Shown piece by piece: positions 2,210 to 51,569 of a DNA stretch of 64,000 nucleotides; position 1 is the first letter of the stretch, and each line of letters begins with the position of its first letter. The notes beneath the pieces were generated by a model. That model was not told where the DNA came from and made no database searches. It saw only the letters and a list, made by a program, of their open reading frames with translations. Made by a program: the position numbers and the translations under genes. Origin of the DNA: a virus. The DNA lies in IMG/VR virus record IMGVR_UViG_3300021957_003133, positions 51,467 to 115,466 of that record; one strand, 5' to 3'.

Positions 2210-2217
2210 GATAAATA
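2210..2217 (+). promoter_or_regulatory. T4-type late promoter octamer (GATAAATA)
   Basis: GATAAATA differs from the T4 late promoter TATAAATA only in its first base. It lies between the terminator and the ATG at 2223 with only 5 nt between octamer and start codon, so the transcript would start at or next to the ATG. No Shine-Dalgarno sequence is present. It is the only such octamer I found on the plus strand and probably drives the whole 2.2-18.2 kb operon. Confidence 0.6.
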
Positions 2218-2222
2218 GTAGT

Positions 2223-2537
2223 ATGAGCGAAATCAATGAACTAGTAGAACAAATCAAGCAGGCAACAGATTTTCAGACTAATAAACAAATTTTACGTGAA
2301 AAGATTAAGACAGACTTACACGTAGCACACAACGGTGGTTTATTTTTAGTTTCTGTTGAACTGATAGCATTCCTTTCAACATGGAATGACGAAGAACTAT
2401 TTGTAGAAGATACATACAACAATCCAATCCCCGTCAATAGACAAGAGTTTCTAACTAAATGCCAAGAACATTATCACTCAGTGATGAATACGTGGCATAT
2501 TGAGTATGCAGAACTTAAACGACAACGCAAAGTCTAG
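2223..2537 (+). CDS. Conserved hypothetical protein, first gene of the late modification operon
   Basis: A 104-residue, acidic, probably helical soluble protein with no membrane segment. I recognise its general look from T4-like marine phages (Gly-Gly-Leu-Phe ... Glu-Leu-Ile-Ala-Phe-Leu core around residues 36-50) but know no function. The start at 2223 follows the late promoter octamer directly and has no ribosome binding site, so translation may be leaderless. Its 3' end overlaps the next gene by about 30 bp. Confidence 0.7.
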   Translation: MSEINELVEQIKQATDFQTNKQILREKIKTDLHVAHNGGLFLVSVELIAFLSTWNDEELFVEDTYNNPIPVNRQEFLTKCQEHYHSVMNTWHIEYAELKRQRKV

Positions 2538-3273
2538 AGGCGTTTTATTATTTGCCTACAACACTGACAGTGTTGACTACGTTAAAATCGCAGAACGTGC
2601 CGCACGATTGATTGAACACAATTTAAAATTACCTGTTACCATTATAACTGATATGCAGAGTCCTCAAACCAATGAGAGGATAGGGTATAAAAACGGTAGC
2701 CAATGGTTTAATGGTGATAGATATCGTGCTTATGAACTCAGTCCTTATGATGAAACTTTATTGTTAGACAGTGACTATTTGATATTTGATAACAGCTTGA
2801 TTAAGATCTTAGACACAGTTGACGATTATAAAATAATGTCAAACAACCAATCACCAACACATAGCCAAGACGGAGATATGGGTGCATTGAGTTTAGCATT
2901 TGTCTGGGCAACTGCGGTAGTATTTAAAAAAACTCAAAAAGCCAAACAGTTATTTGATTTAGTTGGTAGGATACAAAGGAACTACGAATACTACGTAAAG
3001 TTATACCACTTAAGAGAAAATAACTTCCGTAATGATTATGCTTTTGCTATAGCCGATAACATTCTTTCAGGATATCACGCCAGTTCAGGCATACCTTGGT
3101 GTATGTTAACCATCGACCATGCAGTTAAAAAGATTGAAACACAAAACAACAAACTGATAGTGAGAGAAGATAGCAAGGCATACATAATAACAAGACAGAA
3201 TTTACACATCATGGATAAAGATTATCTATTAGGCGATAGCCATCAAAAACTGTTGGATGAAATATGTCTATAG
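2506..3273 (+). CDS. Putative GT-A-type glycosyltransferase
   Basis: About 255 residues. The motif Leu-Leu-Leu-Asp-Ser-Asp-Tyr-Leu-Ile-Phe near residue 90 is a typical metal/nucleotide-sugar binding DxD at the end of a beta-strand. The N-terminal Gly-Val-Leu-Leu-Phe-Ala-Tyr-Asn-Thr-Asp strand fits the first strand of a GT-A fold. The start at ATG 2506 is chosen over an upstream TTG (2500). The gene overlaps both neighbours, which indicates translational coupling. It resembles the next gene in layout (opening Asn-Thr-Asp strand, late DxD-like site), so the two may be diverged paralogues. Sugar and acceptor are unknown; a fibre or host-surface glycan is an inference from context. Confidence 0.6.
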   Translation: MQNLNDNAKSRGVLLFAYNTDSVDYVKIAERAARLIEHNLKLPVTIITDMQSPQTNERIGYKNGSQWFNGDRYRAYELSPYDETLLLDSDYLIFDNSLIKILDTVDDYKIMSNNQSPTHSQDGDMGALSLAFVWATAVVFKKTQKAKQLFDLVGRIQRNYEYYVKLYHLRENNFRNDYAFAIADNILSGYHASSGIPWCMLTIDHAVKKIETQNNKLIVREDSKAYIITRQNLHIMDKDYLLGDSHQKLLDEICL

Positions 3274-4115
3274 ATAGGGGATTTTTAACTATAGCACAGA
3301 ACACAGACGGAGTAGACTATCTACGACTAGCATACGCACAGGCCATGAGTATTAAGTTAACTATGCCTGGTAGTCAATATTGTGTTATTGTTGATCAAGA
3401 CACTAACAAACAAATCACAGACGAGCAAAGACTAGTGTTTGATCATGTTCGAGTTCTAGACAAGGACTATGCCAAACAAGATCAGTGGAAGTTAGCTAAC
3501 GAATGGCAAGTGTTTAATCTAAGTCCTTACAAAGAAACAATAAAAGTAGAAAGCGATATCTTGTTTACACGCAGTATAGAACATTGGTGGCACGCATTTA
3601 GGCTACGCGACATAGTGTTAAGTCTAGGTACACGAAATTTTAAAGGCAAACAAGCCAAGTCGAGAGTGTATAGAAAAATATTTGATGCCAATCAATTGCC
3701 GGACGTTTACAACGGATTGATGTACTTTCGTTATAGCGAAACTGCTAGTGAATTTTTTGAGATAGCAGAACAAGTATTTAAACAATGGGAAACAGTTAAA
3801 GGAAATATATTAAAAGGGTTTAGTTATGAAGAAGCATCAACCGACGTAGTTTATGCCATCGCGGCAAAGACACTAGGAGTTGAACTATGTACATTGCCTG
3901 ATTGTGATTTTATCAACTTTACTCATATGAAAAATGCAATCAATGACTGGCCTGATGATAAATCTTGGACTGAAATGATAATGACAGAAGTAGATCTTCC
4001 AATGATACGTATTAACAATGTTAATCAATATCATCCTGTACACTATCAAGATAAAAACTGGCTCACCGATGAAATAATTGAAAGGTATAAAGAATGTTTA
4101 CACAACAAGAATTAG
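3264..4115 (+). CDS. Putative glycosyltransferase-like protein, paralogue of the preceding gene
   Basis: 283 residues. The opening Gly-Phe-Leu-Thr-Ile-Ala-Gln-Asn-Thr-Asp-Gly-Val-Asp-Tyr parallels the upstream protein. The DxD-equivalent region reads Ile-Lys-Val-Glu-Ser-Asp-Ile-Leu-Phe near residue 97 (E-S-D instead of D-S-D), which may alter metal binding. A following Asn-Gly-Leu-Met-Tyr-Phe strand is also seen in GT-A enzymes. The ATG overlaps the upstream stop by 10 bp. Activity is unproven; a catalytically altered or scaffold paralogue is possible. Confidence 0.55.
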   Translation: MSIDRGFLTIAQNTDGVDYLRLAYAQAMSIKLTMPGSQYCVIVDQDTNKQITDEQRLVFDHVRVLDKDYAKQDQWKLANEWQVFNLSPYKETIKVESDILFTRSIEHWWHAFRLRDIVLSLGTRNFKGKQAKSRVYRKIFDANQLPDVYNGLMYFRYSETASEFFEIAEQVFKQWETVKGNILKGFSYEEASTDVVYAIAAKTLGVELCTLPDCDFINFTHMKNAINDWPDDKSWTEMIMTEVDLPMIRINNVNQYHPVHYQDKNWLTDEIIERYKECLHNKN

Positions 4116-4441
4116 ATCAAGCTATGAAACAATGGCCAGAGATCAATGAAGAGACCGTTGAATATAGATTACACTATGACCATACTGGTTTTATCTACAT
4201 GCAGACGCTACAAAATCATCCAGAGAATACCCAGTATATTGTAGTAGACGAAACTGTTTATTTTGATACCCGAGACTATAAAATAGTTGACGGTAAGCCC
4301 AAAATCATTGACTTACCAACCGGATATCGTGTACAATTAAAGAGTAGCAATAAAGGATATCAAGTGGTCAAAAATCATGCAGGTATCTTGTTGGAAAAAG
4401 AAACATACAACAATGTGGAATACTATGAAGAAAATAGTTGA
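4094..4441 (+). CDS. Hypothetical protein in the late modification operon
   Basis: 115 residues, soluble and Tyr-rich, with no recognised motif. The ATG at 4094 lies inside the 3' end of the previous gene (22-bp overlap), and its own end overlaps the next start at 4425. It is kept as real because codon use and coupling match its neighbours. Function unknown. Confidence 0.6.
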   Translation: MFTQQELDQAMKQWPEINEETVEYRLHYDHTGFIYMQTLQNHPENTQYIVVDETVYFDTRDYKIVDGKPKIIDLPTGYRVQLKSSNKGYQVVKNHAGILLEKETYNNVEYYEENS

Positions 4442-5318
4442 TATAGCTGATTTAGATTGTGTTTACCTCAGCTACGACGAACCTAAAAAAGAAGAGTTTT
4501 GGATTAAAATTTCCAATATGGTTCCTTGGGCAACTCGTGTCGACGGAGTTAAAGGCAGTGATGCCGCACATAAAGCCGCGGCTGATTCTAGCACTACAGA
4601 TAGATTTATTCTAATAGACGGTGATAACTTACCCGACACAGAGTTCTTTAATCAACAGTTGGTATTAGATGACAACAATCAAGATTGTGTATTCCGTTGG
4701 AAAGCCAAGAATAACATAAACGGATTACAGTACGGCAACGGTGGATTAAGTTGTTGGACAAAAGAGTTTATTTACAATATGAAAACTCACGAGAATACAG
4801 ATGGTGATGAAGCCAATGATATAGAGTTTTGCTTTTATGAAAACTATTGGGCAATGCACGACTGCTATTCAACTACATATCCAAATGCTACACCTTTTCA
4901 GGCTTGGCGAGCAGGATTCCGTGAAGGTGTTAAGATGTGTTTAGATAGAGGAACAAAACCTAGTCCAGCAGACTTTAAACAAAAAGCACATGACAGAAAT
5001 TTGGATCACCTCAGCGTATGGCATAATGTAGGTCGAGATGTTGAAAATGGTATATGGGCTATGGCAGGTGCAAGACAAGGCACAGTAATGACTATGTTGT
5101 CAGACTGGGATCATCGAGAAGTACAATGGTTTGACAACTTAGAAAAGATATGGAATGAAGTAGAGTCACAGGATGCTGAAACTATAGCACATGAGAACGG
5201 TACAGAACTCAGAAAATTAGAGTTACCTGCACTTAAATATGATAGCGAACAAAGTAAGTTTTTCAAACATCATTACAAAAGCGGATTTAACAATAAAGGA
5301 ATAATGGAACGTGAGTAA
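4425..5318 (+). CDS. Putative GT-A-like protein related to the C-terminal half of the 16.9-18.2 kb gene
   Basis: 297 residues from ATG 4425, which overlaps the preceding stop; an ORF from 4377 would need a longer overlap and adds a poor N-terminus. Phe-Ile-Leu-Ile-Asp-Gly-Asp-Asn-Leu is a DxD-like site near residue 66. Later blocks Asn-Gly-Leu-Gln-Tyr-Gly, Trp-Arg-Ala-Gly-Phe-Arg-Glu and Ala-Gly-Ala-Arg recur in the same order in the second half of the protein at 16942-18234. The pair is therefore homologous. Function is probably glycan or small-molecule transfer, but no substrate can be read. Confidence 0.6.
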   Translation: MKKIVDIADLDCVYLSYDEPKKEEFWIKISNMVPWATRVDGVKGSDAAHKAAADSSTTDRFILIDGDNLPDTEFFNQQLVLDDNNQDCVFRWKAKNNINGLQYGNGGLSCWTKEFIYNMKTHENTDGDEANDIEFCFYENYWAMHDCYSTTYPNATPFQAWRAGFREGVKMCLDRGTKPSPADFKQKAHDRNLDHLSVWHNVGRDVENGIWAMAGARQGTVMTMLSDWDHREVQWFDNLEKIWNEVESQDAETIAHENGTELRKLELPALKYDSEQSKFFKHHYKSGFNNKGIMERE

Positions 5319-6705
5319 AAGTAAATTTATGAGCTCTGCAGAAGAGATGAAGGAAAAATTAGGGCCTAGTCTCTGCCTGGCAAAATGGCAACAGGTTAGT
5401 TTACATTTACCTACTGGACTCAATAATAGCTGTTATCATCCACCGTTGCATGAAATTGATGTAAAACCGCTAGAGTTCCATCCCAGTGCTTTGCATAATA
5501 CTGTTCATAAGAAAGAGCAACGGAAAAAAATGCTAGAGGGTGAGAAACCTAAAGAGTGTAACTACTGTTGGACTATGGAAGATGCTGGACATCTGAGCGA
5601 TAGACACTATCGTAGTGGTGAGCCCTGGGCCGCAGAACATTATGATAATATTGTTAACCAACCATGGGACAAAGATGTTACTCCAAGTTACGTGGAAGTA
5701 AATTTTAGTCACGGATGCAACCTTGCTTGTAGTTATTGTAGTCCACAGTTTTCAACTGAATGGAATAAAGACATAGAACGCTGGGGTGCTTACCCGACAA
5801 AAAGTCCACATAATGACCCTATGCATTTTAAAGGACGTCGACAACCTATACCAGTTAGAGAAAACAATCCTTATGTAGAAGCATTTTGGCAGTGGTGGCC
5901 CGAGCTATACCCTGAACTTAAACACTTCCGCATGACAGGTGGTGAGCCTCTCATGGACAAAAACACACATAGAGTATTTGACTACATATTAAGTAGTCCT
6001 AAACCAGACTTACACGTTGATGTTACTAGTAATTTTTCAGTAGAGCCAAAACTATTTAATCGCTATATTGACAAGGTGCAACAACTTTGTACTGGAGAAC
6101 GAATAGAACATTTTATGCAATATGTAAGTGTTGACACTGGAATAGCTGAACACGCTGAATATATAAGACATGGGTTAAACTTTAAAAGATTAGAAAACAA
6201 TGTGTATAGATATCTTGAAGAAGTGCCACATAGAAATAGTTTAACATTTATCTTAACCATGAACAATCTTAGCTTATTAGGACTACAAAGACAACTAGAA
6301 TGGATCCTAGAACTAAGACGAGTATATAATACAGACGGTTATCAAAAAATATGGTTTGATACACCGGTGTTAAGAACTCCGAGTTGGCAAAGTCTACAGA
6401 TACTTCCAGAAAGCTATGTAGGTATATTAGAGAATGTTATCAAATGGATGAAACTGCACAAGCTAGATGAAAACAGTGATAGATTTGACGGGTTCAAAGA
6501 TTACGAAATACAGAGAATGGAACGTGATTGTGCTTGGATGAAGAAAGGTAAAAAACTAAATGAAAAATATTTACACGAAACCCGTGCAGACTTTTATAAT
6601 TTTTTCAATGAATATGATAAGCGTAGGAAGATTGACTTTTTGACAGTGTTTCCACAGATGAAAGAGTTCTGGCAGGAGTGCAAATGGCATGCCGAAAATA
6701 GCTAA
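5311..6705 (+). CDS. Twitch-type radical SAM enzyme 1
   Basis: 464 residues from a GTG start overlapping the previous stop. The radical SAM cluster motif CX3CX2C is Cys136-Asn-Leu-Ala-Cys140-Ser-Tyr-Cys143, followed by the SAM-binding Gly-Gly-Glu-Pro at ~210-213. Ahead of it lies a Cys-rich region (Cys22, Cys41, Cys83, Cys86) with a Cys-x-x-Lys-Trp ... Gly ... Cys-x-His-Pro pattern, the kind that holds an auxiliary Fe-S cluster in SPASM/twitch enzymes, here N-terminal to the core. It is closest in design to the next gene. Such enzymes often modify peptides or sugars; the substrate here is unknown. The end overlaps the next start by 17 bp. Confidence 0.85.
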   Translation: MSKSKFMSSAEEMKEKLGPSLCLAKWQQVSLHLPTGLNNSCYHPPLHEIDVKPLEFHPSALHNTVHKKEQRKKMLEGEKPKECNYCWTMEDAGHLSDRHYRSGEPWAAEHYDNIVNQPWDKDVTPSYVEVNFSHGCNLACSYCSPQFSTEWNKDIERWGAYPTKSPHNDPMHFKGRRQPIPVRENNPYVEAFWQWWPELYPELKHFRMTGGEPLMDKNTHRVFDYILSSPKPDLHVDVTSNFSVEPKLFNRYIDKVQQLCTGERIEHFMQYVSVDTGIAEHAEYIRHGLNFKRLENNVYRYLEEVPHRNSLTFILTMNNLSLLGLQRQLEWILELRRVYNTDGYQKIWFDTPVLRTPSWQSLQILPESYVGILENVIKWMKLHKLDENSDRFDGFKDYEIQRMERDCAWMKKGKKLNEKYLHETRADFYNFFNEYDKRRKIDFLTVFPQMKEFWQECKWHAENS

Positions 6706-8044
6706 GGAAACAGACTTAGAGTATAAGCATAGAGTAATTGACATTAAAAGTGAAAGTTTCTGTGCGGCTAAATGGTATAACGCTACTATATGGTTGGGAA
6801 GTGGTATGACTACTAGTTGCCATCATCCGTTGCCACACCCTATTGACATAGAAGCTATTAAAACTAATCCAAGTGCTTTACATAACACTGACAAGAAAAA
6901 ACAAGAACGAGAACAGATGCAGAAAGGTGAACGCCCTAGTGGATGTGAGTACTGCTGGAAAGTAGAAGACATGGGAACTGATGCTATATCAGATAGGGTT
7001 TATAAAACAGTTATATATGAGGACAAAGAAAATGATGAAGCTTTTAACACACCTTGTCAAGAAGATGTTAATCTTAAAACATTAGAGATTGCTTTTGATA
7101 GAACTTGTCAACTTGCTTGTAGTTATTGTAACCCTGCGTTTAGTAGTACTTGGGTTAAAGATGTTAAACGTAACGGAGCATATATTGATTTAGTTTCAGA
7201 TGGTAGGAATCATTTTACTCACACGCACGACAGTAGTCAGTTGTATACTTTTAGTGAAACTAATCCTTACATTGAAGCATTCTTCAAGTGGTGGGAAACA
7301 GACTTACACAAAACATTAAATGAATTACGTATCACTGGTGGCGAACCTCTTATGAGTGGACACACGTGGAAGTTGATTGAATGGTTTAAAACTAATCAAG
7401 GGAGATCAAAAACTAAATTAGCGATTAACAGTAACTTGGCTATCTCTCAAGAAAAGCTCGCAGAGTTTATAGACAGTATACAATCACTTCCACACTTAGA
7501 AGTGTATACCAGTAATGAAAGTGTTGGAGCACAGTCAGAGTATATAAGAGATGGTATAAATTATCTCGAATGGTGTCAAAATATCGAAACCTTAATGGAT
7601 TGTAGTTCTGTAAAAATACTACATGTGATGTTCACTATTAACAGTCTTTGTTTAGACAGCATAACTGATCTATTAGACTATCTTATGAAACTAAAACACC
7701 GGCATGGTAAGTTCAGTCTGAGTTTTAGCTTAAATATATTAAGATTCCCTAGTTTTCAAAGTGCTACAGTACTACCTGATGACATTAGAAATCAGTATAA
7801 AGAAAAATTACAGTCTTGGTTAGATCTAAATAAAGATGATCTAACATTACACGAGTACGAAGTAAATCATGTAGAAAGATTAGTTGATTATTTAGACATA
7901 GTTAAAACTCCGCATGCAGGTGCTGATGAAATAACAACTCTACAGAACGATTTTAAACAGTTTTACAAACAATATGATGAACGTAGAGGAAAGAACTTTA
8001 CAGAAACATTTCCTAGATTAACAGAATGGTATAATACATTATGA
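6689..8044 (+). CDS. Twitch-type radical SAM enzyme 2
   Basis: 451 residues. The CX3CX2C motif is Cys140-Gln-Leu-Ala-Cys144-Ser-Tyr-Cys147, followed further on by Ile-Thr-Gly-Gly-Glu-Pro. The N-terminal Cys set (Cys25, Cys44, Cys86, Cys89) aligns with radical SAM enzyme 1, including Lys-Trp, His-His-Pro and a shared Pro-Ser-Ala-Leu-His-Asn-Thr block, so the two are recent paralogues. The stop overlaps the start of the next small gene as ATGA. Reaction unknown; the two may act sequentially or as a heterodimer. Confidence 0.85.
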   Translation: MPKIAKETDLEYKHRVIDIKSESFCAAKWYNATIWLGSGMTTSCHHPLPHPIDIEAIKTNPSALHNTDKKKQEREQMQKGERPSGCEYCWKVEDMGTDAISDRVYKTVIYEDKENDEAFNTPCQEDVNLKTLEIAFDRTCQLACSYCNPAFSSTWVKDVKRNGAYIDLVSDGRNHFTHTHDSSQLYTFSETNPYIEAFFKWWETDLHKTLNELRITGGEPLMSGHTWKLIEWFKTNQGRSKTKLAINSNLAISQEKLAEFIDSIQSLPHLEVYTSNESVGAQSEYIRDGINYLEWCQNIETLMDCSSVKILHVMFTINSLCLDSITDLLDYLMKLKHRHGKFSLSFSLNILRFPSFQSATVLPDDIRNQYKEKLQSWLDLNKDDLTLHEYEVNHVERLVDYLDIVKTPHAGADEITTLQNDFKQFYKQYDERRGKNFTETFPRLTEWYNTL

Positions 8045-8208
8045 GTGAAGAAATAAGCACACAACGTATTGCAATAAGTACAGACGGCGTTGAAATAGAC
8101 AGCAGTCAAGGTGACTTATTGTCAGAAGCAGTCCTACTTGGCACCATTGTTATAGTAGTAGCTGTATTATACATAGGTAAGAAATGGATAGACAGGAAGT
8201 TTAAATGA
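8041..8208 (+). CDS. Small single-span membrane protein
   Basis: A 55-residue ORF with ATGA overlaps at both ends, linking it to radical SAM genes 2 and 3. Residues ~28-47 form a hydrophobic helix (Ala-Val-Leu-Leu-Gly-Thr-Ile-Val-Ile-Val-Val-Ala-Val-Leu) followed by a basic tail, which predicts an N-out/C-in anchor. The position inside the radical SAM run suggests it could tether a neighbour to the membrane, but this is inference. Confidence 0.7.
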   Translation: MSEEISTQRIAISTDGVEIDSSQGDLLSEAVLLGTIVIVVAVLYIGKKWIDRKFK

Positions 8209-9524
8209 GTGACAAAGAAACAGACGACTACTATAAAAATCACGAGTATCACGATCGTAAACCTGTGTACATTGATGAAAAAGATTTAAGGACAGATCAA
8301 TTAGATAGACTTACAAAGAGTGAAACATTCTGTATGATCCCTTGGATACACATGCATGCATTCCCCAATGGGCAAGCATTTCCTTGCTGTCTTGCTGACA
8401 GTGATCATCCTATAGGCGACTTACATAAGAATACTATTCGAGAAGTATGGAATGACACAGCATACAAAACAATGCGTAAGAATATGCTTGAAGAAAAGAG
8501 CTGTAAAGAATGTACTAAATGTTATGAACAAGAAGATATGGGTTTTGTTAGTATGCGTAATTCATCAAACAAATCTTTTGGACATAATATTGGAATAGTG
8601 GATGACACCAAACCAGATGGTACCTTTGATGATTTCAAACTACGTTACTATGATATTAGATTTAGTAACTTATGCAATATGAGTTGTCGTACCTGTGGTG
8701 GTTGGTTTTCTAGTTCGTGGCATGACGAAGAAACAGCATTATATGGTAAGCGTGAGTATCCTAAATTTATGTTTGCTGGCAAAGACAAAGAAGATATGTG
8801 GAATCAATTACAAGAACACATTCCTTATCTAGAACAAGTATACTTTGCTGGTGGTGAACCTTTGATAATGGAAGAACACTATCGCTTGTTAGATGAACTA
8901 GAAAGACAAGAGTTATTCAATGTTAGACTACAGTATAATACTAACTTTAGTAAGCTAAAACTAAAAACAAAACATGTGTTTGACTATTGGCAGAGATTTA
9001 AAAATGTGTCAGTGGGTGCTAGTTTAGATGCCATGGGAGCTAGAGCAGAATACATGCGTAAAGGCACAGTGTGGGCAGAAACTGTTAGTAATAGAGAACG
9101 GATGTTACAAGAATGTCCTAACACAGACTTTTATGTTAGTAGTACCGTTAGCATTTACAACGCACTACATGTCATGGACTTCCATCGTGACTGGGTTGAA
9201 CGTGGATTAATCAAAGCACAAGACTGGAACATCAATATATTACAGGGTCCTAACAGAGACAGGATTGATGTGCTACCAAAGATTTATAAAGAACAAGTAA
9301 AAGAAAAGATACTAGAACATATTGAATGGTTACGCCCACAGGATCATTTAAATCGTGCTGTTGTTGGTTATGAAAGCATATTGACATTTATGGAAAATCA
9401 AGACCAACAAAACTTGTTACAAGAGTTCTTAGAAGTAAATGATAGACACGACGACTATAGAAAAGAACAGTTTGAAACGGTGTTTCCTGAATACAAGGAG
9501 TTAAGAACATATGTCTCTACCTAA
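8205..9524 (+). CDS. Twitch-type radical SAM enzyme 3
   Basis: 439 residues. The N-terminal half carries Phe-Cys43-Met-Ile-Pro-Trp ... Pro-Asn-Gly ... Pro-Cys61-Cys62, then Cys100, Cys103 and Cys106, the usual auxiliary-cluster pattern of phage twitch proteins. The radical SAM motif is Cys157-Asn-Met-Ser-Cys161-Arg-Thr-Cys164 and Ala-Gly-Gly-Glu-Pro follows. It is linked by ATGA to the small membrane protein upstream and overlaps the next gene by 14 bp. It is more like enzymes 4 and 5 than 1 and 2. Substrate unknown. Confidence 0.85.
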   Translation: MSDKETDDYYKNHEYHDRKPVYIDEKDLRTDQLDRLTKSETFCMIPWIHMHAFPNGQAFPCCLADSDHPIGDLHKNTIREVWNDTAYKTMRKNMLEEKSCKECTKCYEQEDMGFVSMRNSSNKSFGHNIGIVDDTKPDGTFDDFKLRYYDIRFSNLCNMSCRTCGGWFSSSWHDEETALYGKREYPKFMFAGKDKEDMWNQLQEHIPYLEQVYFAGGEPLIMEEHYRLLDELERQELFNVRLQYNTNFSKLKLKTKHVFDYWQRFKNVSVGASLDAMGARAEYMRKGTVWAETVSNRERMLQECPNTDFYVSSTVSIYNALHVMDFHRDWVERGLIKAQDWNINILQGPNRDRIDVLPKIYKEQVKEKILEHIEWLRPQDHLNRAVVGYESILTFMENQDQQNLLQEFLEVNDRHDDYRKEQFETVFPEYKELRTYVST

Positions 9525-10728: not shown

Positions 10729-11212
10729 TATAGCATTAGGATGTAGCCATACCTACGGTGTAGGAGTAGAAAAAGATGAAGCTTGGCCTAATCTACTTGG
10801 GCTAGTAAATTATGGAGTTCCTGGGTGTAGTACTGATTTAATTTGTCGCACCCTGCCTAAGATTTTAGAGAAAGAACAACCAGACATTGTGTATATACTT
10901 TGGCCTGATTGGACAAGATTTGAATATCGTAAAGATGGAGAATGGATTCAATCACATCCAACAGACAGAAACAGAATTGAATTTATGGAAAGCCACCCAG
11001 AAGAATGGCTACGAGAAAATTTTAAACAGCAGGTAGCACGAGTAAACGAATTGTGTAAAGGTATAAAAGTTAACGCAATGACATTAGATGATTTGATCCC
11101 TTTCATTGACAATGCTGATATGTGGCCGCTCAGTAAATTAGGGCACCACTATGCTCCTGAATGGCACCATTGGGTGGCAGAGATATTTGAGAAACTGAAT
11201 GAAGCAACCTAA
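10721..11212 (+). CDS. Short SGNH-hydrolase-like protein
   Basis: 163 residues. Block I reads Ala-Leu-Gly-Cys-Ser9-His-Thr-Tyr-Gly, the GxSxT-type variant of the GDS motif, and block II is Gly-Val-Pro-Gly-Cys-Ser. The C-terminal Gly-His-His-Tyr-Ala-Pro-Glu-Trp-His-His could supply the catalytic His, but the Asp usually three residues before it is not evident. It is shorter than most SGNH esterases (~200 residues). It overlaps both radical SAM neighbours, so it probably acts on the same product, for example in acyl-group transfer or removal. Confidence 0.6.
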   Translation: MSNIALGCSHTYGVGVEKDEAWPNLLGLVNYGVPGCSTDLICRTLPKILEKEQPDIVYILWPDWTRFEYRKDGEWIQSHPTDRNRIEFMESHPEEWLRENFKQQVARVNELCKGIKVNAMTLDDLIPFIDNADMWPLSKLGHHYAPEWHHWVAEIFEKLNEAT

Positions 11213-12503
11213 GAATAGACCAGAAACGCTGTGTATGGCTCCGTGGACTCATACTTACCTATCGCCACAGACTGAACGTAGAATGTGCTGTGCTAGTCGT
11301 GAGGATGCACAATCATTTGAGCAGTATATAGATACCAAAGCTGGCACAGGCAAATACCAACCAATCACTTTAGAAAAACACTGGAATTCAGACCATATGA
11401 AATCAGTGCGTAAACGCATGATGGCTGGAGAAACCTTAAAGGAATGTGCCGTATGTAACGATAAGCTGTTGAATACTGATGTTTACCGTAGTTATTTCAA
11501 CCGAATGTTTAGCGATAAGTATGATAGTATATGGGACACTACAGATGATACGGGCTACACCACAACAAAGCCTGTAAGCTGGGATTATAGATTCAGCAAT
11601 CTCTGTAACTTTAAGTGTCGCACGTGCGGTGACATGTTGTCAAGTGCATGGGAGTCAGAGCAAAGACAGCATAACACTATCAATTGGGATAATCCTAGAA
11701 ACAATTGGATGAAACCCGACATTAGGAAACAGATATCTGAGTTTCAGGACAATCAAATTGAGAAAGAGTTCGCAGATGCTGTAGAATCTCATCAAATTGA
11801 GGAAGTATATTGGGTTGGTGGTGAGCCATTGATGTACGATCAACACTGGAGATACATGAAACGTATCGTTGATTTAGGAGATGGGAAAAATGTTTACGCT
11901 AGATACAACACAAATCTTAGTCGCATCAATTATCGCGGTATCAACCTCTATACTGATATTCTATCTAGGCTACAGGATTGGCAAATATGTGCAAGCCTTG
12001 ATGGTACAGGAAGAATTGGAGAATATATCAGGACAGGTCTCAACTATCAAACGTGGGTTGAAAACTTTAAGGAAGGTCTTAAGGGAGTTACTAACGATCG
12101 TCAAATGAGAATAGACTTTACACTTACCTTACCGGGTATGTTTGAGGTTAAAGAGATGGACAAGCTAGCTTATAATTTAGATAGTGAGATATTGGCCAAA
12201 GTAATATTCAGTTTCACACCAGACATCATTATGAGTCCGTTAGCACTGCCAAGGAAACTATTAGAAGAGTGGATTGATGATATATTAGAATCCAAGCTAT
12301 GTAAACCTGTACTGATAGATATGCTTACCCAACTAAAAACAAGACCTACGTTCGAAGAACAATGGCCTGATACCTATCAAGAAAGTCTTGCAAAAGGCAA
12401 GCGTCGTGTGTTACAATTAGAGAGTATACGTAAAGATGAATTTACTTTAGCGGATATTTTAAAATCAAGGAAAGAAGTATATGAGTGGTATCAATCAATC
12501 TAA
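11199..12503 (+). CDS. Twitch-type radical SAM enzyme 5
   Basis: 434 residues. Cys12-Met-Ala-Pro-Trp, Cys30-Cys31 and Cys83/Cys86 precede the core motif Cys136-Asn-Phe-Lys-Cys140-Arg-Thr-Cys143; Val-Gly-Gly-Glu-Pro follows. The start lies within the end of the SGNH-like gene and the end overlaps the next gene. It is the fifth member of this family in 7.2 kb. Confidence 0.85.
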   Translation: MKQPKNRPETLCMAPWTHTYLSPQTERRMCCASREDAQSFEQYIDTKAGTGKYQPITLEKHWNSDHMKSVRKRMMAGETLKECAVCNDKLLNTDVYRSYFNRMFSDKYDSIWDTTDDTGYTTTKPVSWDYRFSNLCNFKCRTCGDMLSSAWESEQRQHNTINWDNPRNNWMKPDIRKQISEFQDNQIEKEFADAVESHQIEEVYWVGGEPLMYDQHWRYMKRIVDLGDGKNVYARYNTNLSRINYRGINLYTDILSRLQDWQICASLDGTGRIGEYIRTGLNYQTWVENFKEGLKGVTNDRQMRIDFTLTLPGMFEVKEMDKLAYNLDSEILAKVIFSFTPDIIMSPLALPRKLLEEWIDDILESKLCKPVLIDMLTQLKTRPTFEEQWPDTYQESLAKGKRRVLQLESIRKDEFTLADILKSRKEVYEWYQSI

Positions 12504-13563
12504 GGTTTCAGTAACACTAAGAAATCCTTTAGTTCGCGATGATCAAATAACATATGACATCATCCTGAATGATACCCAATTGGCTAAAGACTGGGTTGAT
12601 GCTCTTAAACAGATATTACAAAACAACAATCTATTAGAAAAGAACTTTTGTTTCTTAGGGTTTCCAGATACACAACGTAATATTAAATATCTCAGTAATG
12701 AACTTAAACAAGCTGTCGACACTATCAATCAATACTTCGACGATTACGAGATTACAGAAACGTACACACCTGAAACACTACGCAACGGCTTAGATCCTAA
12801 TCAAGATCTTATGAATCAATTACATAATCATTTTGAAGTACTGCAAGGAACTGTAGAGAATCTTAGTGATTACTATAGACGTGCTGACCACGAAACAAAG
12901 TATGCCATAAGACAGTTAAACATTATCTGTCACGAGTTAGAAAGTTTGATGTTAAGCTTACGTAAAAAAGTTAACGCTCCTGATTGGGTACGTAGCAGTC
13001 AAATAACTACATTTTTACAGTGTGAAAGATTCGAGTTAACACATGAACATAGACAAGGATTCTTAACCAACGGATATGATAGACAGTTTGGCGGTGTTTA
13101 TATGCACTGGACACAGATAGGTAAAACACTGTTTGAAGTATTCAATGATGAAGGCGCTCCAGAACTAACAGATGCAGTATGTGACGCTATAACACACCTA
13201 CAATACTATTCAGGTGAGTTTGATGTTGAATGGGGTAACACTGTTAACAGAGGAGACAGCACAGTGCCTTGGCATAATCAGGCACAAGATAAATTTGAAC
13301 AATGGTTACGAGATAATCAGTTGGATCCTACGAATACTCAATTGAGTTTAGGATATTTGCCGTTGGGCAATATTGATCTTACTACGTTTGGCACAGACGA
13401 TCCCAATGAGATAAGAGAAATACTAGGACGTTACCTTGATATCTATAAAATTAAAGTTGACGGAGTGTCGAATACTTTCGAATACTGCTGGACTGATGAT
13501 GATTACAAGCAACAACAAATTAATAGGATGATTCCAGGATATGATTTTAGTAGCAGGGGGTGA
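12481..13563 (+). CDS. Conserved hypothetical protein
   Basis: 360 residues, soluble, acidic, with helical predicted stretches in the first half (residues ~95-160) and a Trp/Tyr/His-rich second half containing Val-Pro-Trp-His-Asn. No catalytic signature is recognisable. It overlaps the radical SAM gene upstream (23 bp) and the SGNH gene downstream (23 bp), so it belongs to the same pathway. Possible partner protein or scaffold; function unknown. Confidence 0.65.
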   Translation: MSGINQSKVSVTLRNPLVRDDQITYDIILNDTQLAKDWVDALKQILQNNNLLEKNFCFLGFPDTQRNIKYLSNELKQAVDTINQYFDDYEITETYTPETLRNGLDPNQDLMNQLHNHFEVLQGTVENLSDYYRRADHETKYAIRQLNIICHELESLMLSLRKKVNAPDWVRSSQITTFLQCERFELTHEHRQGFLTNGYDRQFGGVYMHWTQIGKTLFEVFNDEGAPELTDAVCDAITHLQYYSGEFDVEWGNTVNRGDSTVPWHNQAQDKFEQWLRDNQLDPTNTQLSLGYLPLGNIDLTTFGTDDPNEIREILGRYLDIYKIKVDGVSNTFEYCWTDDDYKQQQINRMIPGYDFSSRG

Positions 13564-14359
13564 TAGTTTTGTTTGGGGCAGTGAGTTAGGAGACTGCAAC
13601 CATGATCATGTTGAGACTCTTGGTAGTTCTAGTGGACATAGTAGTCTTACATTTCCAGCTATTTTAGGACAAGACTACGAATACCAATGTTGTGCTTATC
13701 CAGGAAACGGTAATGATACTATTGCTAGAAATGTTATTATAGCATGCGAAAAAAATAAAGAACAAAATCAAGCACAAGTAGTTTCAGTAACATGGACTTT
13801 CCCAGGGAGATACGAATTTCATGTAGAAACTAGTCAAGGTGCTAAATGGGAAACTATTAATTCATGGACAGTAGGTAAGAAATATACTGAAGAATCTGAT
13901 CAACATTTAAATGAATTTGTCGAACAATTTAACGAACATGCTGAAAGTCTGGGTATAGTAAAATTTGCTAAATCTTATTTTGCTAATGTTGGACATTTAG
14001 AGTATTGGGAAACTTATACTGCTATTAAAGAAATAGTATATTTGCAAAATTATCTCAAAGCAAATAATATTCAGTATCTATTTACATGTGCAGATGTTGG
14101 GTTTCTTAATAATCACACAATAAAAGTCGCAGATGATACTATACGTTCGCTGTATAATCAAATTGATTTTGACCGTTGGTACTTGTTTCCTAAAGGTAGC
14201 AGAGCAAACGAAACCACAGTACCAAGAGGTTTTTACCAATGGGCATTGGAAAATAAGTATAGTATAGGCCCGATGAATCACCCGCTAGAGAAAGCACATC
14301 GAGATGCCGCTCTATTAATAAAGGATAAATTTAATGAATTGGTTCAAAAAAATAATTAA
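13541..14359 (+). CDS. SGNH-hydrolase-like protein
   Basis: 272 residues. Block I is Val-Ala-Gly-Gly-Asp-Ser-Phe-Val-Trp-Gly, a clear GDS motif at residues 7-9, and block II-like Tyr-Pro-Gly-Asn-Gly-Asn-Asp follows. A C-terminal Gly-Pro-Met-Asn-His-Pro-Leu offers the catalytic His, but the canonical Asp at His minus 3 is Pro. Expected role: esterase, or acyl- or acetyl-ester chemistry on a glycan or peptide. It overlaps the upstream gene and a 33-codon ORF at its end. Confidence 0.65.
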   Translation: MILVAGGDSFVWGSELGDCNHDHVETLGSSSGHSSLTFPAILGQDYEYQCCAYPGNGNDTIARNVIIACEKNKEQNQAQVVSVTWTFPGRYEFHVETSQGAKWETINSWTVGKKYTEESDQHLNEFVEQFNEHAESLGIVKFAKSYFANVGHLEYWETYTAIKEIVYLQNYLKANNIQYLFTCADVGFLNNHTIKVADDTIRSLYNQIDFDRWYLFPKGSRANETTVPRGFYQWALENKYSIGPMNHPLEKAHRDAALLIKDKFNELVQKNN

Positions 14360-14435
14360 TCGAATAAAGATGGAACTTCGATATCGTAAAAAGTTAAAAG
14401 AACTTAAAAAACGAGATCCGTTTATCTATAAATGA
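14334..14435 (+). CDS. Very small basic protein (33 residues)
   Basis: The frame runs from ATG 14334 inside the end of the SGNH gene to a TGA at 14433-14435 that forms an ATGA overlap with the next gene. The product is strongly basic and Lys/Arg-rich, ending Lys-Lys-Arg-Asp-Pro-Phe-Ile-Tyr-Lys. It fills what would otherwise be a 72-bp gap, and the coupling geometry supports translation. Function unknown. Confidence 0.55.
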   Translation: MNWFKKIINRIKMELRYRKKLKELKKRDPFIYK

Positions 14436-15067
14436 AATTACTAACAGTAGGAGATAGTTTTACTTACGGTGAAGAGCTTGTAGATATAAACAATGCTTGG
14501 CCTTACCTACTAGGTAAACAGATAGACTACGAAGTTACTAATCTAGGAAGTCCAGGATGTAGTAATGCCCGTATGATTCGCAATGTTATAGAAAATGCAG
14601 ACAAGCATGATTTAATTATCATTGCCTGGAGTCATTTTGCTAGATTAGAAGTATCAGATGAGAATGGTACTTATGATCTTTGGCCAGGTGGGTCGGGAGT
14701 ATTCTTTACTGGAGAGTTGAAGTATAGGAAAGAACTAATAAACTATGTAAACAGACACCACAATGATGAATATTTGTATAATCAATACACAACTAATATT
14801 GTGCTAGTACAAAAATATTTAGAATCTAAAGGCAAGCGTTACATCATGATGGATACGTTTGGAAATCATCAAGACAAACAAAGACAGTCTAATGGTTTAA
14901 TCAGTCAAGTAAACGATCAGTATTATATTGGGTGGCCAACAGAAAGCATGATGGAATGGACCTATAAAACACCACAAGGTCCAGCAGGACATTTTTTAGA
15001 AGAAGGACATCAAAAAGTAGCAGAAAAAATCAATGAATATATTAGGAATATCGGCTGGGTTTCATGA
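14432..15067 (+). CDS. SGNH-hydrolase-like protein
   Basis: 211 residues, close to the normal length of SGNH esterases. Block I is Thr-Val-Gly-Asp-Ser-Phe-Thr-Tyr-Gly (Ser at residue 8), block II Leu-Gly-Ser-Pro-Gly-Cys-Ser-Asn, and the C-terminal Gly-His-Phe-Leu-Glu-Glu-Gly-His offers the His. Asp at His minus 3 is missing. It shares this layout with the proteins at 10721, 13541 and 53741. Its 3' end overlaps the carbamoyltransferase gene by 35 bp. Confidence 0.7.
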   Translation: MKLLTVGDSFTYGEELVDINNAWPYLLGKQIDYEVTNLGSPGCSNARMIRNVIENADKHDLIIIAWSHFARLEVSDENGTYDLWPGGSGVFFTGELKYRKELINYVNRHHNDEYLYNQYTTNIVLVQKYLESKGKRYIMMDTFGNHQDKQRQSNGLISQVNDQYYIGWPTESMMEWTYKTPQGPAGHFLEEGHQKVAEKINEYIRNIGWVS

Positions 15068-16523
15068 TGCTGGCATGAGTTGTGTGAGTGATGGTGAAAT
15101 TTTATTTGCCGCACACAGCGAACGTTACAGTAGACAAAAACATGATAGCAAACTGTGCAGTGAAATGCTGTTTGATTGTTTGTCACGAACCGGCTTACCT
15201 GATGTTATTGCCTATTACGAAAGACCCTGGGTTAAAAAAACTAGACAACTGTATGCAGGGCAATGGAACTCTTTATGGTCAGATTGGTCAGTGCGTAGCA
15301 TGATCAATGAGATTGATATAGAAGGGGCTTTAAAACATGTACCCATAAAAACTTATAATCATCACCTGTCACATGCGGCCGCTGGCTTTCAAACATCACC
15401 ATACAAAGACAGCACAGTTGTAGTCATTGATGCCATTGGGGAATGGGACACTATTAGTATATGGGACGCAAGATACGATAGTCAAGGGCAAGCAACATAT
15501 AAAAAATTATGGGGCCAAAAGTATCCACATTCAATTGGGTTAATGTATTCAGCGTTTACTAAAGAAGTTGGACTACGTCCTTTAGATGAAGAATACATTT
15601 TAATGGGAATGGCCGCATACGGGCAAAGTCATTTTAAAGACGCATTTAAAACAGTGTTGTTAGATGAACCCACCAGTTTAACATTTAGACATAATCTACA
15701 TCTTGGGTTACCAGATGGTGGTGAAGGTGGCTATGGAGAAAACTTTGATGTAGCCGCTGGGGCACAAGAACTGGTAGAAGAACTTATCAATGAAGTAATA
15801 CGCATATCTAAAAAATTAGGTATAAGCAAGAACTTAACTTATATGGGTGGTGTGGCTCTAAATTGTTCAGCCAATAGAGACCTAGGACAGTATTATAATA
15901 ATATATGGATTATGCCTAATCCAGGAGATGCTGGCTCAAGTTTAGGTGCCGCGGCATTAACATACGGAAAACAATTAAATTGGAAAGATGCTTATTTAGG
16001 ATATGATATCAAAGGTGAATACCCAGTTAAAGATTTGTTAACAGAATTATTAGAAAACAAGATAGTAGGTGTTGCTAACGGACCTGCAGAGTTTGGTCCT
16101 AGAGCTTTAGGCAACAGAAGTTTACTAGCAGATCCAAGAGGGCCAGAAATAAAAGATCAAGTAAACGAAATTAAACGTAGACAAAAGTTTAGACCATTTG
16201 CTCCTGTTATCTTAGAAGAATACGCCAACGAGTATTTTCAAATGCCTTCGGGTTTTCCTACTAGCGATTATATGCAGGTAACAGCCTTATGCAATTTTCC
16301 TAAACAATTCCCAGCAATTATCCATCACGACGGAACTAGTCGTGTACAAACAGTACCTAAAAATTCACGCAGTGGTATAAGACAATTACTAGAAGCTTGG
16401 CATGTATGGACAGGATGTCCTATGTTACTTAATACTAGCCTTAATATTAGAGGAGAACCAATGGTAAACAGTCGCAGTGACGCAGAAAGATTCCAAGAAC
16501 ATTATGGGATTCGTGTGTTATGA
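15033..16523 (+). CDS. Carbamoyltransferase, NodU/CmcH family
   Basis: 496 residues, somewhat shorter than the usual 550-600. The N-terminal actin-like (Kae1-type) domain begins Ile-Leu-Gly-Ile-Ser-Ala-Gly-Phe-His-Asp-Ala and carries the metal site His-His-Leu-Ser-His-Ala-Ala near residue 110. The C-terminal domain has the hallmark Glu-Phe-Gly-Pro-Arg-Ala-Leu-Gly-Asn-Arg-Ser and Ala-Asp-Pro-Arg. The family uses carbamoyl phosphate and ATP to O-carbamoylate sugars or antibiotic scaffolds. In this operon a carbamoylated glycan or peptide is the likely product. Confidence 0.9.
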   Translation: MNILGISAGFHDAGMSCVSDGEILFAAHSERYSRQKHDSKLCSEMLFDCLSRTGLPDVIAYYERPWVKKTRQLYAGQWNSLWSDWSVRSMINEIDIEGALKHVPIKTYNHHLSHAAAGFQTSPYKDSTVVVIDAIGEWDTISIWDARYDSQGQATYKKLWGQKYPHSIGLMYSAFTKEVGLRPLDEEYILMGMAAYGQSHFKDAFKTVLLDEPTSLTFRHNLHLGLPDGGEGGYGENFDVAAGAQELVEELINEVIRISKKLGISKNLTYMGGVALNCSANRDLGQYYNNIWIMPNPGDAGSSLGAAALTYGKQLNWKDAYLGYDIKGEYPVKDLLTELLENKIVGVANGPAEFGPRALGNRSLLADPRGPEIKDQVNEIKRRQKFRPFAPVILEEYANEYFQMPSGFPTSDYMQVTALCNFPKQFPAIIHHDGTSRVQTVPKNSRSGIRQLLEAWHVWTGCPMLLNTSLNIRGEPMVNSRSDAERFQEHYGIRVL

Positions 16524-16942
16524 AAATATTAATATGCGGATTACCAGGAAGTGGTAAAACAACTTTAGCAAAACCATTTGCGGAACTGTTAGGTGGTGTC
16601 TGGATAAATGCTGATAGTATTAGAAAACAATATGATGATTGGGACTTCAGTGATGAGGGCAGATTACGTCAAGCTGAACGAATGCGTTTACTAGCAGACG
16701 GTGTTGAACTAGCAGGTAAAGTTGCTGTGTGTGATTTTGTTTGCCCTACAGAACAAACACGACAAGCACTTGATGCTGATTATGTAGTATGGATGGATAC
16801 TATTAAGGAAGGACGTTTTAATGATACTAATTTAATATTTAAAAATCCTGATGTTGTCGACTATCGTGTAAGTGCTTGGTTTGACGACACTGATAAGGAA
16901 TTAGTTAAAGTAGTATCAAACTATATAGAGAAAAGTAAATAA
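16520..16942 (+). CDS. P-loop kinase resembling adenylylsulfate (APS) kinase
   Basis: 140 residues. The Walker A motif Gly-Leu-Pro-Gly-Ser-Gly-Lys-Thr-Thr lies at residues 7-15. Asn-Ala-Asp-Ser-Ile-Arg follows, where CysC has Asp-Gly-Asp-Asn-Val-Arg, and Cys-Asp-Phe-Val-Cys-Pro-Thr resembles the CysC Phe-Ile-Ser-Pro region. It is shorter than typical CysC (~180-200). Likely reaction: phosphorylation of APS or of another small metabolite; if APS, it could feed sulfation in the operon. ATGA coupling to both neighbours. Confidence 0.65.
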   Translation: MKILICGLPGSGKTTLAKPFAELLGGVWINADSIRKQYDDWDFSDEGRLRQAERMRLLADGVELAGKVAVCDFVCPTEQTRQALDADYVVWMDTIKEGRFNDTNLIFKNPDVVDYRVSAWFDDTDKELVKVVSNYIEKSK

Positions 16943-18234
16943 TGTACGACATATTCATCATGGATATGGGCGGTCACGACGACAACGTTAAGAGTCTTGT
17001 ACAACGTTTCCCTCACGCTAAGGTGGTAAGATACTACGATAATCATTTAGACACTGTAAAACGCTGTATTTCGCGTTGTAGGACCACATATGCTTGGGTA
17101 ATTTCAAGTTGTTGCGACTATGCTAACTTTGATTTTGACTATCGACCTATACATCATCAAGCCTATCAAATACACTGTTGGGCTAGTGGCAATCAACAGT
17201 TCGGCGACACATTTCTAATACCAAAAGATGAATTCTTAAAGCAACAAGATATAGAACTGTTAGAATGGTATAAAGACATCAATTGGCACCAAGATGGTGT
17301 TCCAAGACTAGCTTGGCCTGTGTTAGAGTGTGAAACAGAAGATATCACCCAGCATTTAAAAGACTGCGAGTTCGATAGCAGTTATGTATGGGTCAACCAA
17401 CGCACAGACTATGATCCTTCACTGTGGAAAGATAGATGTTTTTACAGTTTTAACAAATCCGGTGATGTATCGTTAGCACCGCGTGAAATTCAGACACATT
17501 TAAGCACACAAATCTATGATTATCCATACATTATCAAGCAAAAAGAAGCGTTTTTACCTTCTAAAACGTTGGATATTATCTACATCAGCAATGGCGAGAT
17601 TGAAAGTGATCGTTGGTATGATCATGCAGTATCAACATCGGGTAAAACAATCAAAAGAGTGCAAGATGTTAACGGAAGAGATCTTGCGATCAAACAGGCG
17701 GCCTATTTGAGTACAACACCATGGTTCTTTACTGTGTGGGCTAAGTTAGAAGTCGACACAGATTTTGATTGGCAATGGCAACCAGATTGTCTACAACAAC
17801 CAAAACATTATATATTCCATGCACGTAATCCTGTTAACGGATTACAGTATGGGCACATGGCAATGGTAGCCTATAATCGTGAGTTAGTACTAGAAACACG
17901 TAAGTGGGGATTAGATTTTACCATGAGTAAATTACACGGTGTTGTTCCTATTGTAAGCGGAACTGCTCACTATAATCGTGATCCATTGATGACTTGGCGT
18001 ACAGCATTTCGTGAAGTAGTTAAATTAAAACAAGACAGTGAAACAGGCAACATTGAAAGTCTACATAGACTACAGGTTTGGTTAACTAAAGCTGTTGGTG
18101 AAAATGCAGAATGGAGTCTACGTGGAGCAAAAGATGCTGTTGAATATTATGAAAGCGTTAACGGTATTTTTAATAAGTTAATGTTATCGTTTGATTGGGA
18201 TTGGTTAAAAAGTTATTACGACAAGCGTTACTAA
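16942..18234 (+). CDS. Duplicated GT-A-like protein, end of the late operon
   Basis: 430 residues built of two similar halves: an opening Asp-Ile-Phe-Ile-Met-Asp strand (residue 3) and a second Asp-Ile-Ile-Tyr-Ile-Ser strand (~residue 211), each followed by a Tyr-Ala-Trp / Thr-Pro-Trp strand. The second half contains Asn-Gly-Leu-Gln-Tyr-Gly and Trp-Arg-Thr-Ala-Phe-Arg-Glu blocks shared with the gene at 4425. The start overlaps the kinase stop. The gene ends 4 bp from the convergent minus-strand epimerase gene with no visible terminator between them. Function unknown, probably sugar-related. Confidence 0.6.
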   Translation: MYDIFIMDMGGHDDNVKSLVQRFPHAKVVRYYDNHLDTVKRCISRCRTTYAWVISSCCDYANFDFDYRPIHHQAYQIHCWASGNQQFGDTFLIPKDEFLKQQDIELLEWYKDINWHQDGVPRLAWPVLECETEDITQHLKDCEFDSSYVWVNQRTDYDPSLWKDRCFYSFNKSGDVSLAPREIQTHLSTQIYDYPYIIKQKEAFLPSKTLDIIYISNGEIESDRWYDHAVSTSGKTIKRVQDVNGRDLAIKQAAYLSTTPWFFTVWAKLEVDTDFDWQWQPDCLQQPKHYIFHARNPVNGLQYGHMAMVAYNRELVLETRKWGLDFTMSKLHGVVPIVSGTAHYNRDPLMTWRTAFREVVKLKQDSETGNIESLHRLQVWLTKAVGENAEWSLRGAKDAVEYYESVNGIFNKLMLSFDWDWLKSYYDKRY

Positions 18235-51326: not shown

Positions 51327-51569
51327 TTAGCCTTCTATTGTTTCTAATGTTATTGTTTCTGATATCGGTTCTTTTTCAGGAACTGCATGTGGTGTAGCTT
51401 TGTTTTTTGCTCCGCAATCAAGTTTTAAAAGTAGTATAGCACATAGTAAAGGATTTGGTTTCTTTTTATCTTGTGTTTGCACTTGTTCAGTGTCAACAGT
51501 GTCTTGTACAGTTGTACACCCAGATTGAAGCATTAATATTACTACTAATACAAAAAATAATATTTTCAT
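51327..51569 (-). CDS. Small lipoprotein
   Basis: 80 residues. A signal sequence (Phe-Phe-Val-Leu-Val-Val-Ile-Leu-Met) ends in the lipobox Leu-Gln-Ser-Gly-Cys17-Thr. The mature part is short and Pro/Glu-rich. With the membrane peptide encoded directly upstream (overlapping by 4 bp) it could form an o-/i-spanin pair for outer membrane disruption, but the partner is short for a spanin. Confidence 0.75.
   Translation of the reverse strand: MKILFFVLVVILMLQSGCTTVQDTVDTEQVQTQDKKKPNPLLCAILLLKLDCGAKNKATPHAVPEKEPISETITLETIEG

Follow-up and report, generated by a model that had tools for sequence, protein, structure and literature searches.

Radical SAM and glycosyltransferase operon tied to the tail fibre genes of uncultured T4-like phages: a candidate locus for virion glycan modification

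A 64-kb stretch of viral DNA (the window; positions 51467–115466 of the 115,466-base IMG/VR record IMGVR_UViG_3300021957_003133) was analysed for a large operon situated behind tail fibre genes. The structural genes read from its open reading frames (ORFs) mark the record as a T4-like phage. The operon (window positions 2223–18234) comprises 17 tightly coupled ORFs, all on the + strand, encoding five radical S-adenosylmethionine (SAM) enzymes, four GT-A-type glycosyltransferase-like proteins (GT), three SGNH-like proteins, one O-carbamoyltransferase, one P-loop kinase, protein U and the small proteins A and B. In relatives the order fibre-FIB2-A-GT1-GT2-B-GT3 was fixed while the radical SAM layer behind it varied, and the cluster is widespread in uncultured lake and ocean T4-like phages rather than a local oddity. 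Modification of the fibre is the best available reading of this linkage, and the operon is described here as a phage glycan locus rather than a proven separate category. We regard it as an even question whether the operon specifies a pathway in the cytosol by which a fibre protein, or some other protein of the virion, receives a tailored glycan, with the glycosyltransferases as fixed core and the other enzymes as a variable layer.

All genes listed in a preliminary description of this DNA were present where that description had placed them. With a 55-aa ORF between RS2 and RS3 counted in, adjacent ORFs overlap at 16 of the 17 junctions and are 72 nt apart at the other. The features are as follows (window coordinates, strand).
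FIB1, 71–1174, +: fibre-like protein with a Peptidase_G2 or intramolecular-chaperone-like C-terminus (Pfam PF11962, E 6.3e-6; phrog_19602, tail fiber); the gene may start upstream of the window edge.
FIB2, 1201–2151, +: fibre-module protein whose place just upstream of A is fixed; Pfam and PHROG searches gave no match.
Terminator-like inverted repeat with T-run, 2164–2192, +: lies between FIB2 and A, read directly from the sequence.
GATAAATA, 2210–2217, +: late-promoter octamer of this phage.
A, 2223–2537, +: small conserved protein with relatives at 219 viral stretches.
GT1, 2500–3273, +: GT-A-like protein with an LLLDSDY motif, homologous to GT2; no Pfam match.
GT2, 3264–4115, +: GT-A-like protein; Pfam match only sub-threshold.
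B, 4094–4441, +: small variable protein in the GT2/GT3 interval, conserved in position (phrog_3971, E 4.4e-5).
GT3, 4377–5318, +: GT-A-fold glycosyltransferase-like protein with a DGDN motif; orthologue alignment suggests a start perhaps near 4425.
RS1, 5311–6705, +: N-terminal-twitch radical SAM protein (NF033640, 307.7 bits).
RS2, 6689–8044, +: N-terminal-twitch radical SAM protein (NF033640, 305.3 bits).
55-aa ORF, 8041–8208, +: one hydrophobic stretch; bridges RS2 and RS3.
RS3, 8205–9524, +: N-terminal-twitch radical SAM protein (NF033640, 405.4 bits).
RS4, 9511–10728, +: N-terminal-twitch radical SAM protein (NF033640, 339.5 bits).
SG1, 10721–11212, +: SGNH-like protein in which GCSH replaces GDS; similar to SG3.
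RS5, 11199–12503, +: N-terminal-twitch radical SAM protein (NF033640, 291.7 bits).
U, 12481–13563, +: predicted beta-barrel with a helical insert, borderline cyclophilin-like.
SG2, 13541–14359, +: SGNH-like protein.
SG3, 14432–15067, +: SGNH-like protein, DUF6071 (PF19547, E 1.3e-7).
NODU, 15033–16523, +: O-carbamoyltransferase of the NodU/TobZ/NovN superfamily (PF16861, E 8.8e-50; PF02543; phrog_1601; PDB matches).
KIN, 16520–16942, +: P-loop kinase, N-terminal part adenosine-5'-phosphosulphate (APS)-kinase-like (phrog_10255, E 2.7e-33; PF01583, 30.2 bits).
GT4, 16942–18234, +: larger protein with a GT3-like C-terminal domain (BLAST E 9.9e-13 to GT3).
EPI, 18239–19207, -: convergent NAD-dependent sugar epimerase (PF01370, E 8.9e-43).

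Gene order was compared across related loci collected with four seeds; the sets overlap, were picked by similarity to the seed and together hold 160 distinct GT2 sequences. For the best 80 of the 219 stretches related to A, FIB2 lay directly ahead of A in 79/80, GT1 came next in 78/78 and the core A-GT1-GT2-(B)-GT3 was found in 71/71 testable loci. The best 80 of at least 586 relatives of an RS1 alignment contributed 78 new loci, in which FIB2 lay no more than two genes upstream of A (72/72) and the core was again present (72/72). Using a distant marine GT2 as seed (80 loci), FIB2 was found in 74/75 loci and the core in 66/66 testable ones. The RS4-seeded search yielded 34 viral loci with the gene order of the window plus inserted cassettes, i.e. 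a 26-member family of approximately 350 aa (by eye glycosyltransferase-like) and extra SGNH-like and DegT genes. Accessory genes in or beside the clusters of relatives included DegT aminotransferases and, by eye from translations, a UDP-sugar dehydrogenase, a cytidylyltransferase and a nucleotidyltransferase; EPI adjoins the cluster in several relatives too. A radical SAM gene followed GT3 in 62 of 64 testable loci of the marine set, and none was present in the other two (L235 and L267), indicating that the fibre genes and the glycosyltransferase core make up the fixed unit, with the radical SAM series added to it variably. The fibre identity of the upstream genes was supported by Tail Collar, Gp10_C and Peptidase_G2 domains in marine homologues and by the tail-fibre PHROG in the window. 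The position behind the fibre genes that the preliminary description had drawn attention to is thus conserved to an unusual degree, and no cluster located far from fibre genes, an arrangement named there as refuting a fibre role, was found among the loci compared.

Among the 50,697 deposited phage genomes searched, this lineage has no close relative. Neither GT3, A, B and FIB2 of the window nor the marine counterparts of GT2, GT3 and FIB2 had a match in these genomes, and the cluster DNA had none either. RS4 matched three and RS1 two deposited records; the only isolate relatives were the Vibrio phages K566 and K567, in which the twin radical SAM genes are distant, together with a 7.9-kb contig from a marine single cell. 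By itself the carbamoyltransferase is common (138 deposited records, mostly cyanophages), and its neighbourhoods in HTVC008M and C48C1 showed no comparable annotated operon. A bacterial origin was looked for in cellular genomes and not supported by the scans made. A single-protein scan of these found nothing, and a degenerate motif scan found three contigs (L131–L133; a Pelagibacter bin, Verrucomicrobia TMED56 and Betaproteobacteria TMED41), all of which share the phage-like gene order of the cluster and are probably mis-binned phage.

The description of RS1–RS5 as five paralogous radical SAM enzymes with an N-terminal auxiliary-cluster Cys domain was borne out. All five exceeded the curated cut-off (170 bits) of NF033640, the 'twitch domain-containing radical SAM protein' family, with scores of 292–405 bits, and the whole record holds six such N_Twi proteins, the sixth at genome positions 20575–21747. 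Alignment of 17 paralogues showed no variation in the four Cys of the N-terminal twitch domain (two Cys plus CxxC) or in the CxxxCxxC triad. For radical SAM ORFs of at least 330 aa, CxxxCxxC was present in 181/181 and the twitch pattern in 179/181, one of the two exceptions being truncated at a contig end. The N-terminal 70 positions of the paralogue profile matched the C-terminal twitch domain of BtrN, indicating that the auxiliary domain sits ahead of the radical SAM core. BtrN is a twitch radical SAM dehydrogenase and resembles these proteins in its single auxiliary-cluster twitch domain, which is C-terminal in BtrN and N-terminal in RS1–RS5. On a FastTree phylogeny of 155 sequences, in which several branches are long and details uncertain, RS2 and RS5 each formed one side of a supported branch and RS1, RS3 and RS4 nearly did so; the five labels required 6 changes as compared to a mean of 93 after shuffling. 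RS1–RS5 are, on this phylogeny, five old paralogues maintained as orthologue groups. Twenty larger related records (73–357 kb), hand-chosen from the loci found, contained 6–21 N_Twi matches each.

Further radical SAM genes and insertions were observed. A sixth N_Twi gene (L044, 560–2092) carries an N-terminal extension and adjoins genes read as gp46/gp47-like, as does another radical SAM gene (L043, 17069–18172), read as having a C-terminal Cys domain. A 590-aa insert at 8242–10014 of L025 and L026, in the RS3/RS4 interval, reads like a B12-type radical SAM protein. An alternative-oxidase-like reading frame (L132, 528–1136, - strand) is inserted among the radical SAM genes of a marine version.

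Assignment of four GT-A-like proteins was upheld for GT3 by fold comparison and for GT4, whose C-terminal domain is homologous to GT3 by BLAST and profile comparison. The predicted GT3 structure (mean predicted local distance difference test score, pLDDT, 83) was compared with the PDB; the best Foldseek match was TarP (6h21; E 5.9e-4, probability 0.93, with a low template-modelling score of ~0.3), and TarS, STIV A197 and a PBCV-1 capsid glycosyltransferase were also in the list. A second comparison (VIA-align) returned BcsA (Z 8.5, 219 residues, root-mean-square deviation (rmsd) 4.9) and cellulose and hyaluronan synthases. The GT3 model has a nucleotide-diphospho-sugar transferase (GT-A) fold with a DxD-like motif, DGDN, a statement that concerns the predicted fold only. 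GT1 and GT2 were mutually homologous in profile comparison, and 'DSD/DGD'-type motifs were seen in many GT1 and few GT2 sequences.

For the remaining enzymes the preliminary description held in varying degree. The carbamoyltransferase was confirmed, with both domains (PF02543 and PF16861) above cut-off and the HHxxHA motif present in 29/29 orthologues. NODU shares both domains and this motif with the O-carbamoyltransferases TobZ, NovN and GdmN; at 140.2 bits it missed the cut-off (1000) of NF041651, the NodU nodulation protein equivalog, and is not NodU by this NCBIfam measure. The three SGNH-like proteins were mutually homologous, with GDS in most SG2 and SG3 sequences and the block I pattern in 28/30 SG3, 24/36 SG2 and 3/13 SG1, but the Pfam GDSL_2 score was 16.5 bits against a cut-off of 32.9 and the Asp preceding the last His (DxxH-type block V) was not kept, so that hydrolase activity is unproven. 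KIN is a P-loop kinase (Walker A in 21/21 sequences) but weak as an APS kinase; the PF01583 match (cut-off 21.1 bits) spans residues 3–83 only, and AAA_18 and AAA_33 rank above it. The predicted structure of U (pLDDT 85.9) had no Foldseek match in the PDB at E <0.5; in a second fold comparison the best match was a mitoribosomal protein (Z 8.4, 143 residues, rmsd 3.5), followed by cyclophilins at a borderline Z of 7–8. Freshwater and marine B were weakly homologous (E 3e-5 over 38 columns).

The timing of expression was examined through promoter motifs. The 115-kb record contains nine copies of GATAAATA, the late-type octamer reported at the head of the operon. An ORF start follows closely in 9/9 cases, as compared to 0.49 such placements on average, and 3 at most, for 167 permuted motifs. 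Eight copies precede genes read as virion genes or A, and the ninth precedes a deoxyribonucleotidase-like gene. As the octamer stands in front of A as it does for virion genes, the operon is probably late in this phage. Of 58 distinct FIB2-A regions, 13 contained the exact octamer, 22 a sigma-70 promoter (no more than one mismatch of 12; 0.3% in shuffles) and none both. By class, 28 of 79 A-seeded loci were sigma-70 and 15 late, the other 36 belonging to neither. Of the 28 sigma-70 loci, 21 had a fibre gene with the exact octamer and none a fibre gene with a sigma-70 promoter. A quick GT3 tree required at least three changes between the late and sigma-70 classes. Within loci L051–L130 the FIB2-A region was observed to switch between the late octamer and a near-consensus sigma-70 promoter. 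Late timing holds for this phage and some relatives but not as a general rule, and was dropped as a general argument for a fibre role after this comparison. Early expression in relatives had been named, along with a distant location, as refuting that role; the promoter type points to such expression in many of them, and the distant location was not found.

A pathway can be proposed from the gene content. GT1, GT2 and GT3, with A and B as small partners, would attach and extend a sugar chain on a protein acceptor, most likely a fibre-module protein from the neighbouring genes, and GT4 would extend the chain further. RS1–RS5, each with its N-terminal auxiliary iron-sulphur (Fe-S) domain, could oxidise, epimerise, dehydrate or cross-link sugar (or nearby) positions, whilst NODU would carbamoylate hydroxyls and the SGNH-like proteins might add or trim acyl groups. 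The kinase and the nearby epimerase and aminotransferase genes may contribute to sugar supply or activation. The tailoring layer differs among phages, as diversifying selection by hosts or competitors would predict. A virion protein appears the likeliest acceptor because the glycosyltransferases are the part never separated from fibre genes; given such an acceptor, the radical SAM, carbamoyl and acyl steps would be tailoring. The octamer common to the operon and the virion genes of this phage supports a virion role. We infer the acceptor, the reaction order, each chemical step and the purpose from gene content and linkage. Of the two products first proposed for the operon, an unusual fibre or virion modification is favoured by position and by an enzyme set suited to tailoring a macromolecule-bound product, but not by timing as general support; no support was found for a product released at lysis.

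Several points weigh against a fibre glycan. Proximity alone does not make the fibre the acceptor, and the operon has no known substrate or product. GT1 and GT2 are assigned by motif and mutual homology only, the catalytic residues of the SGNH-like proteins are incomplete, and no N-terminal-twitch radical SAM enzyme with a known activity was found from which function could be transferred. Promoter class is not conserved, and the operon is probably early, ahead of fibre synthesis, in many relatives. For the glycosyltransferases of comparable islands, the authors of PMC7029224 favour host-surface modification (this paper, PMC5332604, PMC7678222 and PMC12619734 are cited here from extracts).

That proposal, made in PMC7029224 for the pelagimyophage host recognition cluster, leads to the strongest rival, in which lipopolysaccharide or capsule is altered during infection so as to block superinfection or re-adsorption of progeny. 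The sigma-70-like promoters of many relatives, implying early expression, would agree with it. Carbamoyltransferases, epimerases and aminotransferases occur in O-antigen pathways too and are counted in its favour. However, none of the 17 cluster proteins passed the hydrophobicity threshold for membrane segments and none is a flippase, polymerase, lipid-carrier transferase or other membrane protein; membrane-like ORFs numbered 2/584 in the spans of related loci as compared to 2/65 in the rest of the window. The lack of predicted membrane proteins argues against export of a lipid-linked sugar, leaving protein or DNA as acceptor. As the glycosyltransferase core is also strictly tied to fibre genes, remodelling of the host surface is judged unlikely.

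Soluble cytosolic enzymes and the early-type promoters of relatives would equally fit hypermodification of DNA, with glycosyltransferases and radical SAM enzymes decorating modified bases of the phage genome. Phage glycosyltransferases that act on DNA are well known, which counts for this explanation, and QueE- and QueD-type genes in this phage point to some base modification. The tie of the operon to fibre genes and its late octamer in this phage speak against it, as does the sole thymidylate-synthase-family gene of the record, which looks like an ordinary thymidylate synthase; a search of the record for TET/JBP dioxygenases gave no match, the control likewise matching nowhere. DNA as the target is accordingly rated lower than the host surface, and improbable. 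Still further down stands a peptide natural product, similar to a ribosomally synthesised and post-translationally modified peptide (RiPP), in which A, B or the 55-aa ORF would supply a small peptide for modification by the radical SAM enzymes, with glycosylation and then release or display to follow. Twitch/SPASM radical SAM families do include peptide maturases, judging by family matches, and A and B are constant members of the operon. Nevertheless, neither A nor B had a PqqD/RiPP recognition element or precursor-family match, A is conserved along its whole length, unlike a leader-core precursor, and the 55-aa ORF was seen between RS2 and RS3 in just one further locus (L012), making this explanation highly improbable. 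The idea that the radical SAM enzymes and a phage SAM synthetase serve pyrroloquinoline quinone (PQQ) and methanol dehydrogenase or other host metabolism, as PMC7678222 proposes for radical SAM and methionine adenosyltransferase genes of such phages, finds some encouragement in the SAM synthetase of this phage and in a strong PQQ-repeat match in one of the 20 relatives, but is scarcely credible, as the enzymes are of the N_Twi family and not PqqE, SAM synthetase is present in only 3/20 relatives and the invariant fibre linkage is left without explanation.

Two specific candidates were tried and rejected along the way. SAM synthetase as an obligate partner was discarded on its occurrence in relatives. 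A PQQ pathway found no support, as the PqqE equivalog TIGR02109 (381 bits) was missed (RS3 14.3 bits, E 0.014; absent from the RS1, RS2 and RS5 lists and, for RS4, none among the matches listed), whilst a PQQ-repeat protein was missing from this record and matched in 2/20 relatives, one weakly.

Elsewhere in the window, all on the - strand, a full-length phage SAM synthetase gene with three Pfam domains (30933–32015) adjoins a QueE-like radical SAM gene (32016–32879), which together with a QueD/6-pyruvoyltetrahydropterin-synthase-like gene (28456–28908) points to a 7-deazaguanine pathway. A B12-binding radical SAM gene (37962–39842) and a DegT aminotransferase gene (40592–41179) form a separate block. 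An A-type Fe-S carrier had no match in this record. The record behind locus L021 (G017) encodes a PQQ-repeat protein in a 603-residue frame (5760–7358, - strand) of the carrier phage, possibly a methanol dehydrogenase.

We tentatively suggest, as a possibility less secure than virion glycosylation itself, that a glycosyltransferase core fixed to the fibre genes, together with a modular set of N-terminal-twitch radical SAM enzymes that can expand (to as many as 21 in one genome), gives the particles radical-tailored, carbamoylated glycans unlike any described for viruses. If true, this would assign a role to a radical SAM family that is widespread but biochemically blank and that, in the phage literature examined, is treated only as Fe-S metabolism or PQQ genes. 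It would also add new chemistry to virion decoration and explain why T4-like phages of this lineage, frequent in metagenomes from lakes and oceans, give at least 16 kb to one locus.

Open-licence PMC papers were searched for comparable systems and none describing this operon was found. The earlier statement that no such phage pathway is described stands for function in the literature searched, but not for the components, since expanded radical SAM sets and islands of glycosyltransferases in the fibre region are on record for T4-like aquatic phages (PMC5332604, PMC7029224, PMC7678222). Four core glycosyltransferase groups occur in another aquatic jumbo lineage (PMC12619734). The same paper, citing Freeman et al. 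2023, states that mycobacteriophage glycosyltransferases decorate virion proteins; these are likewise phage-encoded, but the acceptors are capsid and tail tube rather than fibre, and the summary given there includes no radical SAM, carbamoyl or SGNH layer. The Lake Baikal T4-like methylophages VP_139 and VP_266 resemble this phage in type, in a 35% GC content and in carrying radical SAM and methionine adenosyltransferase genes, which were read as PQQ synthesis (PMC7678222), whereas the present record has no PQQ-repeat protein. A T4-like 183-kb environmental genome (PMC5332604) represents the same kind of phage and likewise has many radical SAM genes, 12 in number; the extract treats them only in terms of Fe-S cluster supply and, unlike here, gives no operon, fibre linkage or glycan role. 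The pelagimyophage host recognition cluster, situated between VrlC and gp14, is similar in uniting fibre genes with glycosyltransferases in one island, and its radical SAM cassettes differ between two pelagimyophages, freshwater members being without radical SAM genes (PMC7029224). The extract of that account names neither a shared glycosyltransferase core nor a twitch family or carbamoyltransferase, and describes the cluster as hypervariable and non-syntenic, whereas in the operon described here the core order is kept in 71/71, 72/72 and 66/66 loci and only the downstream layer varies.

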